This document shows positions 34,958 to 37,585 of a stretch of 64,000 nucleotides of DNA, piece after piece; positions within the stretch are counted from its first letter, which is position 1, and every line of letters starts with the position of its first letter. The notes beneath the pieces were generated by a model. The model saw nothing but the letters and a program-made list of their open reading frames with translations. It was not told the DNA's origin and made no database searches. Source of the DNA: Oscillatoriales cyanobacterium (GTDB taxonomy: Bacteria > Cyanobacteriota > Cyanobacteriia > Cyanobacteriales > Laspinemataceae); NCBI GenBank assembly GCA_011390955.1, contig JAABRM010000004.1, positions 62,001 to 126,000 on the forward strand, written 5' to 3'. A program made the translations under genes and the position numbers.

Positions 34958-35410
34958 TTAATGCAATATTGGGCTACGAGAATAGTGATTCACAACCTTA
35001 CATAGACTTAATTCTCTCAGGTTATTATTCCAATGAACTTTATCGAAAATCTGGTGTAAAATAAACAATCCTCTGCCGCATTCATCTTCCTCGTGGGGAA
35101 ATTCTTCGTTAGTTTCATTGGCATAAGCGGAATTGGGGCAATAAAAACCATTTCCTCGATCGGAAATGATCCACCAATACTCATCACGAACTACTGAAAA
35201 ACGAATTTCAACTGTTTTACTTGGGTCTAGGTTATTGCCATGTTTAGCTGCATTCACTAAAGCTTCTTGTAGTCCCAGTCTAATTTCTGCTTGCCATTGA
35301 CTGGGAATTTCTGCCAATAGCAAATCTAAAATTGGACAGAGATATAGCGTGGAGGCAAAGCTAATTTTGTTCCAGCTACGTCCTTTGATCCGAGGTGATA
35401 TAGCAATCAC
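34958..35410 (-). CDS. anti-sigma factor-type ATPase (RsbW-like)
   Basis: A 150-residue single-domain GHKL protein. It has the N box EALVNAAKHGNN (about 49-60) and the G1 box SDRGNGF (about 82-88), and GRGLFILHQIF (about 113-123) stands for the lid/G2 region. No HisKA domain is present. Proteins of this form are Ser/Thr kinases that phosphorylate an anti-anti-sigma partner (RsbW/SpoIIAB type) in partner-switching networks. No STAS partner or PP2C phosphatase gene is adjacent, so its target is unknown. Next to it is a long gene-free region. Confidence 0.88.
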   Translation of the reverse strand: MIAISPRIKGRSWNKISFASTLYLCPILDLLLAEIPSQWQAEIRLGLQEALVNAAKHGNNLDPSKTVEIRFSVVRDEYWWIISDRGNGFYCPNSAYANETNEEFPHEEDECGRGLFILHQIFDKVHWNNNLRELSLCKVVNHYSRSPILH

Positions 35411-36664
35411 AGAAAAACCCCGCAGTTTTGATTAATAAATGAACATGGTTTGTCTAGGTGTCACCCTAAATATCCTTGAGGATTTGCTGATTGCCTAAAT
35501 GCTAATCACCCAGTTACTTTCGCAGGCATCTCAGAATCATAGACAAAAATCGTCAATGATGCTTGAATGTATCGAAAGATACTGATGATTGCAGGTGATG
35601 GCAACTCACCAAAGAGCGGATATTTGTGTCACCCCGATCGCGAATTGTTGTGGATTCCGACAACAAAGCGATCGCATCTAAAAAGGTAAGTTGCTCCCCA
35701 AGGTGGATCGTTGAGTTTCAGATCGATATAGGGTCAAACCCGCACAGTCTGTGACTCGTTAAGCAGGATCCAGTTGACCGATTAAATATTAATTATTGAT
35801 CAGTGCGTGTGCGGCATTGACAGCCGACGGATCGGCCTTTGTTTGTCATCAAACTTGCCAGCCTTTATTGGCGGCAGGTCACGGAATTTGTAGTTGCCAA
35901 ATCATCCAAACCATACTGCTCGTGACCCAAAGCTCTAACTAAGTATATTTTTATTTTATCTCAAGAATCAGCAAAATACCAGAGGTTTAGTCAGATTTAA
36001 ATAATTGCTAGGGAATTATTCCATCTAAAATCCCAGACTAATGGTTCCCTATTTAGGCGTTCATAGTTATAATAGCTTATTTGTCGATTCACCGTAGCAT
36101 CCGAGTTTTTACTGATTTGGTCTGTATGGGAAATCCTGACATAGCTGGGGTTAATCAATACTTTTCTAGGCTCTGAGAGCCTAGTCAGGACTCTCTCCTG
36201 CGTAATTTCACGGAATTAGATCGGTCAACGGCGCCAAAGTCAATTTCCTCCCCATCGAGTGATTTACATCCCATGCTTAACCAGGGTCTAAATATGAGAA
36301 AAAAATTAATTTTTATTAAAATTTTTTATTAAAGAATGACTAATTATTTGAATTTACAAATCTATCCGATGTAGGGCCGCCATCGGGGAAGCCGCCGTCG
36401 TGTAGGGTGTAGGGTGTAGGGTGTGGGGGAAGAGGGGCAGAGGTGCGGAGGGGCAGAGGTGCGGAGGGGAAAATTTCTGATGGCGGACTCCCCTGCACCG
36501 GGGCACCGGGGCAACCACCGCCACCGGATTGCCCCTACCTCCCCTACACCGATGGCGGCCGATGGCGGCCGATGGCGGCCCTACACCCTACACCCCAGAA
36601 CCCAAGGACAAAAAAATCTGCTTAAGATACAATTATTCACAAAACTTATTATTTCTTAATCATC
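35411..36664. other. 1.25-kb gene-free region with tandem hairpins, possible RNA gene
   Basis: No protein frame looks real. At 35823-35876 three hairpins follow each other: GCCGA/TCGGC, GTTTG/CAAAC and a bulged TTGCCAGCC/GGCGGCA. At 36134-36190 an outer stem TCCTGA/TCAGGA encloses a perfect 9-bp hairpin (CTAGGCTCT/AGAGCCTAG). The sequence between 35450 and 36290 is not repeat-like, which is unusual for this genome's spacers. From 36375 to 36600 it turns into GTAGGGT and GATGGCGGCC tandem repeats. A structured RNA or a leader is possible; no known family was recognised. Confidence 0.45.
36375..36600. repeat. tandem repeats (GTAGGGT, GGCAGAGGTGCGGAG, GATGGCGGCC)
   Basis: At 36402-36426 the heptamer GTAGGGT repeats; at 36430-36470 GGGGCAGAGGTGCGGAG is duplicated; at 36551-36583 GATGGCGGCC repeats three times; then CCTACAC heptamers close the tract. 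This is the last repeat block before the hydrolase gene. Confidence 0.8.
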
Positions 36665-37585
36665 ATGGCGGATAGTGCAGTCCTGGCTTCAGCAGAAATT
36701 TGCGGTGATTACTGGCAATGGCGCGAACAGTCGATTTATTATGTTCGGGCAGGAAACCGACATTCGGGGCGCCCACCGTTGTTATTAGTACATGGTTTTG
36801 GGGCTTCCACCGACCATTGGCGGAAAAATATTCAGGAATTACAACAAGATTTTGAAGTATGGGCGATCGACCTGATTGGTTTTGGCCGTTCGGCGAAACC
36901 GAAATGGGTTTATGGGGGCGACCTTTGGCGCGATCAACTGCATGATTTCATCCAAGGACAAATCGGGGCGCCCGTGGTGTTAGCGGGGAACTCCCTGGGG
37001 GGTTATGCTTCCTTATGTTTGGCCGCCCAGCGCCCTGAGTCTGCCGTTGGGGTGATTTTACTGAATAGTGCGGGACCTTTTAGCGAGACATCAACCGAGA
37101 CATCAACGGACACATCATCGGCGCCCAAACCATCACCCATTCGCCAAGGGATGAATCAACTGATCCGGGGAGTTTTTCGCCAAGATTGGGTCAGCTTTTT
37201 GATTTTCCAATGGACCAGACGGCGATCGGTGATTCGGAAAACCCTGGAAAAAGTCTATCTAGATACCACTGCGGTGACAGACCAACTGGTAGAAGAAATT
37301 TATCGTCCTTCTTGCGATCCGGGGGCGGCGGGGGTTTTTGCTTCGGTGTTCAAGTCTCCTTCGGGGGAAAAAGTAGACCAGCTACTCCAAGAGTTGAACT
37401 GTCCCCTGTTGACTCTGTGGGGGGAAGGCGATCCCTGGATGAATGTGCGCGATCGCAGTCAAAAGTTTCGCCAACATTATCCCCAACTCACCGAACACTT
37501 CCTCAAAGCGGGTCATTGCCCCCATGATGAAATTCCCCAACAGGTCAATGAATTGATCAAAACGTGGGTTTTATCAATTCGTTGA
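36665..37585 (+). CDS. alpha/beta hydrolase
   Basis: A 306-residue alpha/beta hydrolase. The oxyanion region is LVHGFGASTDHWRKN (about 38-52), the nucleophile elbow is AGNSLGGYASL (Ser, about 111-121), the acid is in LWGEGDPWMN (about 257-266) and the base is the His in AGHCPHDE near the end. There is no signal peptide. The pattern, with an Asp-containing DLIGFGRSAKP after the first strand, is shared by cyanobacterial hydrolases related to epoxide hydrolases, MenH-like enzymes and chlorophyllase-type proteins; the substrate is unknown. Start ATG at 36665. It converges on the ferredoxin-like gene, with hairpins in between. Confidence 0.9.
   Translation: MADSAVLASAEICGDYWQWREQSIYYVRAGNRHSGRPPLLLVHGFGASTDHWRKNIQELQQDFEVWAIDLIGFGRSAKPKWVYGGDLWRDQLHDFIQGQIGAPVVLAGNSLGGYASLCLAAQRPESAVGVILLNSAGPFSETSTETSTDTSSAPKPSPIRQGMNQLIRGVFRQDWVSFLIFQWTRRRSVIRKTLEKVYLDTTAVTDQLVEEIYRPSCDPGAAGVFASVFKSPSGEKVDQLLQELNCPLLTLWGEGDPWMNVRDRSQKFRQHYPQLTEHFLKAGHCPHDEIPQQVNELIKTWVLSIR

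Follow-up and report, generated by a model that had tools for sequence, protein, structure and literature searches.

An open reading frame of only 11 codons, previously unannotated, was found in front of an RsbW/SpoIIAB-like serine kinase gene on the minus strand of the window, a stretch of 64,000 nucleotides that belongs to a 7.1-Mb cyanobacterial genome. Comparison with related genomes gives good support for the ORF itself, for its fixed length and stop codon and for its linkage to the kinase gene. According to the explanation that we hold with slightly better than even confidence, the stem-loops visible in this spacer belong to the leader of the kinase gene, and the ORF specifies a regulatory leader peptide at whose [Ile/Val]-Pro-UGA end the ribosome may pause and so tune the expression of the kinase.

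The presumed target gene of the leader (34958..35410, minus strand) encodes a protein with a HATPase_c_2 domain (E 2.4e-16). The best solved relative is RsbW (E 2.2e-5), and the best NCBIfam RsbW score of 29.6 bits lies far under the cut-off of 145. The gene was detected in 96 of the 99 relatives searched at E <= 1e-20. A conserved ribosome-binding region, CTGCGGGGTTTTTCT, was recognized by comparison at 35411..35425 (minus strand) and ends at the GTG start of the kinase gene. A divergent gene for an alpha/beta hydrolase is located to the right of the spacer, past a repeat-rich stretch (36370-36600) that is composed of GTGTAGG, GATGGCGGCC and GGGGCAGAGG units; this stretch is missing in one congener, and the second congener carries other repeats.

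The spacer probably represents a 5' leader of the kinase mRNA on the minus strand, with a length of about 540 nt. Conservation was examined within Planktothricoides, represented by the window genome and the congeners G001 and G002, which are almost identical to each other and were counted as one comparison. A DNA search in 59 relatives matched the spacer in these two congeners only. The alignment with G002 revealed an identity of 92-100% per 50-nt bin for positions 35400-35999, including the putative leader (35411..35946), followed by a drop to 58-84% for positions 36000-36349, with the lowest values (58-68%) at 36100-36249. The conserved block stops at the putative promoter. It is not far above the background (on average 93% for ORFs of at least 110 aa and 91% for the remainder of 28,721 aligned window positions); it is the drop on the far side of the promoter that stands out. 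The putative -10 box TAAAAT (35953..35958, minus strand) was assigned by comparison only and aligns with TACAAT of other genera; a consensus promoter scan did not report a box at this position. In its conserved, promoter-like form TACAATA the motif has a spacing that leaves about 32 nt to the ATG of the ORF, and the transcription start was placed, as a prediction, about 7 nt past the putative -10 box.

A weak similarity of the conserved block to the regions upstream of orthologous kinase genes led to the ORF, which reads ATG GTT TGG ATG ATT TGG CAA CTA CAA ATT CCG TGA (35914-35879, minus strand) and specifies the peptide MVWMIWQLQIP*. The element is also contained in the record of Planktothricoides sp. 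SR001. Of the 30 kinase-gene loci that were fetched, 15 contain it, and together with the divergent representatives G058 and G489 it was found in 17 genomes of two families, eight of which belong to one genus with one peptide and are not independent. The 17 intact ORFs consist without exception of 11 codons, end with [IV]P and are closed by UGA. They specify the eight variants MVWMIWQLQIP, MIWMIWQLQIP, MLWVIWLLTVP, MLWVIWRLTVP, MVWFMWRLKIP, MVWFIWRLKIP, MVLAIWRFTVP and MGTLICRQKIP, which are described by the pattern M-[VLI]-[WL]-x-[IM]-W-x-[LF]-x-[IV]-P-UGA, with MGTLICRQKIP as one divergent form. Tryptophan is not fully conserved: the third residue is Leu in one genus and the sixth is Cys in G489. 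An alternative GTG start 18 nt upstream was rejected, because Planktothricoides has no such codon and the frame is interrupted in G058.

The substitutions within the ORF bear a coding signature. Synonymous divergence exceeded non-synonymous divergence (pS > pN) in all ten pairs formed by five lineages. Moreover, the protein-similarity score of these five lineages, the G489 variant being left out, amounted to 367, compared with a mean of 150 (sd 42) after permutation of the 30 inner columns; in 20,000 such permutations, of which 13.7% contained no stop codon, a score as good was never attained. Since 6, 4 and 7 of the 10 columns at the first, second and third codon position are variable, it is the kind of change that carries the coding signal, and not a strong excess of third-position changes. 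These values apply to lineages that share ancestry and to a short ORF that was chosen after inspection. The region contains a short ORF with constraint at the amino-acid level, as is looked for in a regulatory leader ORF. Reading frames of about 11 codons are shorter than gene callers usually accept.

A search of 388 genomes of the order with model R1 yielded matches in 30 genomes at E <= 0.01, the scan being one whose filters discard weak ones. Every one of the 19 strong matches (E <= 8.6e-9; the genomes that built the model contribute 11) lies upstream of the kinase gene and in the same orientation. The kinase gene is missing from the loci of all 11 weak matches (E >= 5e-4), and these were taken as chance. 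A pattern scan of the genome contigs, in which the end codon was left free among TAA, TAG, TGA and TGG, detected 12 stretches. The ten cyanobacterial ones all end with TGA and are followed by the kinase gene in the same orientation, and the two from other phyla end with TGG and were judged to be chance matches. The ORF thus occupies a fixed position upstream of one same-strand target gene, as is expected of a leader ORF.

With respect to the two families, model R2 matched 12 of the 14 genomes of the window's own family, one of them with an additional weak match, and the ORF is missing in the remaining two (G004 and G005). In the second family, seven of eight genomes were matched, five with an intact and two with an interrupted ORF; the eighth, without an R2 match, is only 66% complete. 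The interrupted copies (G464 and G477, loci L106 and L107) belong to one genus of the second family; their ORF is split by an insertion of about 0.66 kb and 0.50 kb, respectively, which is flanked on both sides by imperfect copies of codons 3-7. Since it is absent from two genomes and interrupted in two others, the leader ORF is dispensable.

Conservation of the amino-acid pattern would also result if the ORF encoded a functional micropeptide, for instance a membrane-associated or kinase-binding one, that is merely carried on the kinase transcript and takes no part in ribosome-pausing control. The hydrophobic, Trp-containing composition and the constant co-location with one gene are in line with this explanation. 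Eleven residues are, however, very short for a stable protein, and the combination of a fixed length and a fixed UGA with variable residues 2-4 and 7-9 would better fit a role of the nascent chain or of termination. We therefore regard a micropeptide as unlikely and prefer the regulatory leader peptide.

The first-pass annotation had directed attention to the spacer on account of tandem hairpins, which it interpreted as a possible RNA gene. The three hairpins at 35823-35876 are indeed present, in plus-strand reading as GCCGA(CGGA)TCGGC (35823-35836), GTTTG(TCAT)CAAAC (35841-35854) and TGCC.GCC(TTTATT)GGC.GGCA (35856-35876), and so is the nested structure at 36134-36190, an outer 7-bp stem around a 9-bp inverted repeat (36166-36174/36176-36184). 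The region was rightly described as not repeat-like, as the sole match of 35411-36310 in the genome is to itself and repeats begin at about 36370-36600. It is gene-free for reading frames of at least 60 aa within 35411-36310, but this description overlooked the conserved minus-strand ORF of 11 codons. Selection on a structured RNA had also been suggested; the first part of the spacer does show signs of constraint and probably forms part of a transcript, namely the kinase leader, but a separate structured RNA gene is not supported. The hairpins in the long spacer drew attention to a tiny, conserved ORF on the opposite strand.

As local folds the hairpins are mildly better than shuffled sequences and ordinary for this window. 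The z values were -2.45 (plus strand) and -2.71 (minus strand) for 35815-35885 and -1.58 (plus) and -2.92 (minus) for 36125-36200. Among 1598 stretches of 71 nt from the whole window, 5.6% reached z <= -2.45 on the plus strand, 4.6% reached z <= -2.71 on the minus strand and 9.4% reached z <= -2.45 on either strand. Both congeners retain the core stems of the three hairpins at 35823-35876, with three changes that are located in two loops and beside one stem, one of them eliminating a closing G-U pair. The inner stem of the nested hairpin is broken in both congeners. This second hairpin lies in the stretch of lowest identity to G002 and was judged to be incidental, since it is positioned upstream of the putative promoter and is not conserved. 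An additional strong stem-loop around CGATCGCG...AAGCGATCGC was observed at about 35635-35675, from which a congener differs by one change on the side of the loop; the fold of 35550-35690, in which it is contained, has a z value of -2.48.

These structures bear on a second alternative, in which the locus specifies an independent structured small RNA, or a kinase leader acting purely as structured RNA, and the ORF pattern is a by-product. Positions 35957-35408 of the minus strand, including the three hairpins, fold to -162.6 kcal/mol (z -3.62; none of 100 shuffles was as good), and this result speaks for a structured RNA along with the unchanged core stems in the congeners and an invariant 5-bp hairpin, GUGAUUCAGGUCAC, that precedes the ATG in seven leaders of other genera. 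Against it, the joint fold of seven leaders that represent five other genera reached a consensus energy of only -8.7 kcal/mol with short helices, and the stems at 35823-35876 do not reappear in it. The constraint on codon positions and amino acids within the ORF and the divergence of the second hairpin also speak against it, as does the minus strand, on which a simple consensus scan of 35300-36700 detected no terminator-like site. The only such site in this interval is located on the plus strand (35823-35836; 1 found, 1.2 expected by chance). The Rfam search that had been proposed as a check yielded zero matches at gathering scores, and four snoRNA-type matches far under the cut-offs at E <= 10. 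Additionally, a search for tRNA and tmRNA genes found none, and a search of a plasmid collection gave no match. This second alternative is considered quite improbable, and the leader peptide remains the preferred reading.

The sequence directly upstream of the ORF start is conserved as well. The motif GGGTCAC(GAGCAGT) at 35915..35928 (minus strand) was derived from alignments and corresponds mostly to AGGTCACAAnC in other genera, with GGGTCACGAGCAGT next to the ATG in Planktothricoides; its GGGT or AGGT is a weak candidate for a Shine-Dalgarno sequence. Since the GUGAUUCAGGUCAC hairpin is common to seven leaders, the conservation before the ATG may in part concern RNA or DNA rather than coding, with the qualification that this hairpin is devoid of covariation and absent from Planktothricoides. 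A larger hairpin, GGTCAC...GTGACC around the ORF, is perfect in Planktothricoides and G003, and was rejected as a general feature because in G058 and G032 an A comes after the stop codon (TGAA). A protein-binding DNA element, namely the sequence GTGA-N6-TCAC upstream of the ORF read as a CRP-type operator, is a very improbable cause of the conservation around the ORF start: GTGATT[C/T]AGGTCAC is found in the aligned intact lineages outside Planktothricoides, but Planktothricoides has lost the left half-site and retained GGTCAC, the two interrupted genomes read ACGTCAC, the N6 core is conserved nearly like the half-sites, and the codon pattern inside the ORF is left unexplained. What is conserved between genera is the 11-codon ORF with its codon and amino-acid pattern, together with a promoter-like and an upstream motif.

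In the proposed mechanism, the kinase mRNA leader (35946-35411, minus strand) would present the 11-codon ORF about 32 nt from the predicted transcript start. Translation of the peptide would end with slow termination at [Ile/Val]-Pro-UGA, and a ribosome waiting on this UGA would cover or melt the first of the three short hairpins (35823..35876, minus strand), which starts 2 nt downstream of the stop codon, and the resulting change in folding, decay or transcript completion of the remaining leader could set the amount of kinase. The use of the putative promoter, translation, pausing, the nature of the signal and the direction of the effect on the kinase are inferred. The hairpins after the stop codon are not common to the genera, which weakens the case for a shared switch structure. 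Reinitiation at the kinase start is unlikely, because the starts of the ORF and of the kinase gene lie about 206-535 nt apart across the loci.

The same kinase gene is preceded by other leaders in other families. In four loci of one family, a conserved 16-codon ORF (MQGVKFIHLKVREFSE* and variants) is located before the kinase gene; its UGA overlaps the GTG start (GUGA), and a GGGAG ribosome site is present in three of the four loci. This arrangement is a candidate for translational coupling to the kinase gene. Eight of eleven leaders examined from other families open with a hairpin of varying sequence and, directly after it, CCUCUAGAGG, which in most cases reads CUCCUCUAGAGG; their ribosome-binding site repeatedly contains CUAGAGG. 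The combination appears to be a conserved cis-element of a different kind. In a third group (L080, L082 and L083), the short ORFs MVLMVQLLLKP..., MVLAVKLANKL... and MLLVGEI... follow a GAGG near the leader start and resemble the N-terminus MVLAIW of one form of the 11-codon peptide. Pairing between the leader start and the ribosome-binding site was rejected as a shared means of sequestration: over the 40 leaders, out of 63, with a hand-pointed promoter, own pairs were no better than shuffled ones, and 580 of 5000 permutations were as good, which is not significant.

On this basis a broader proposal can be made, which we advance tentatively and regard as possible at best. The 11-codon ORFs might represent a new cyanobacterial family of ribosome-arresting leader peptides, in which the 11-residue chain responds to a signal of the cell by stalling termination at [Ile/Val]-Pro-UGA and exerts control over a kinase of the anti-sigma type, with other families using the overlapping 16-codon ORF or the 5' hairpin with CUCCUCUAGAGG instead. 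If this is true, a partner-switching regulator would be controlled by the state of translation, in a phylum without reliable reports of peptide-based attenuation. Cyanobacteria would then use nascent-peptide control, and would do so on a gene that is present in nearly all relatives searched.

Leader ORFs as such are a known kind of element, and a literature search in open-licence papers found no description of this peptide or of any leader ORF for the kinase gene. The present ORF resembles the short leader ORFs of amino-acid attenuators (trpL type) in having two Trp codons among 11 in six of the eight variants and in being followed by hairpins, but its target is not a gene of Trp biosynthesis and its Trp codons are not strictly kept. 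Moreover, a trp-type attenuator needs a terminator after the ORF, and the minus strand of 35300-36700 contains no terminator-like site according to the simple consensus scan. To our knowledge, the kinase gene has no link to Trp synthesis. Classical Trp attenuation is therefore unlikely. For cyanobacteria in general, a 2016 survey states that reliable data on attenuation are lacking (PMC4833913).

With respect to the target, Slr1861 and PmgA of Synechocystis are termed RsbW-like kinases (PMC11863333), and the downstream gene described here belongs to the same RsbW/SpoIIAB-like family, a likeness at the level of the protein family. The non-coding RNA Ncr0700/PmgR1 of Synechocystis is said to act with PmgA (PMC12831587). 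It resembles the present case, by description, as an RNA tied to an RsbW-like kinase, whereas the feature seen at the locus analyzed here is an ORF and not a set of conserved stems.

A close mechanistic parallel may be TnaC of Escherichia coli, in which residues 23 and 24 (Pro24) hinder the release of the chain by RF2 (PMC8429421). Both elements are short Trp-containing leader ORFs upstream of their target that end with Pro-UGA, here in 17 of 17 intact ORFs. TnaC differs in having 24 codons and controlling the tryptophanase operon, compared with 11 codons and a kinase target, and its Trp12/Asp16 motif, as described in the same paper, is missing from the eight variants, which comprise only 11 residues and are devoid of Asp. 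By analogy, TnaC-like pausing is predicted for the 11-codon peptide, with the arrest and its ligand both being part of the prediction.
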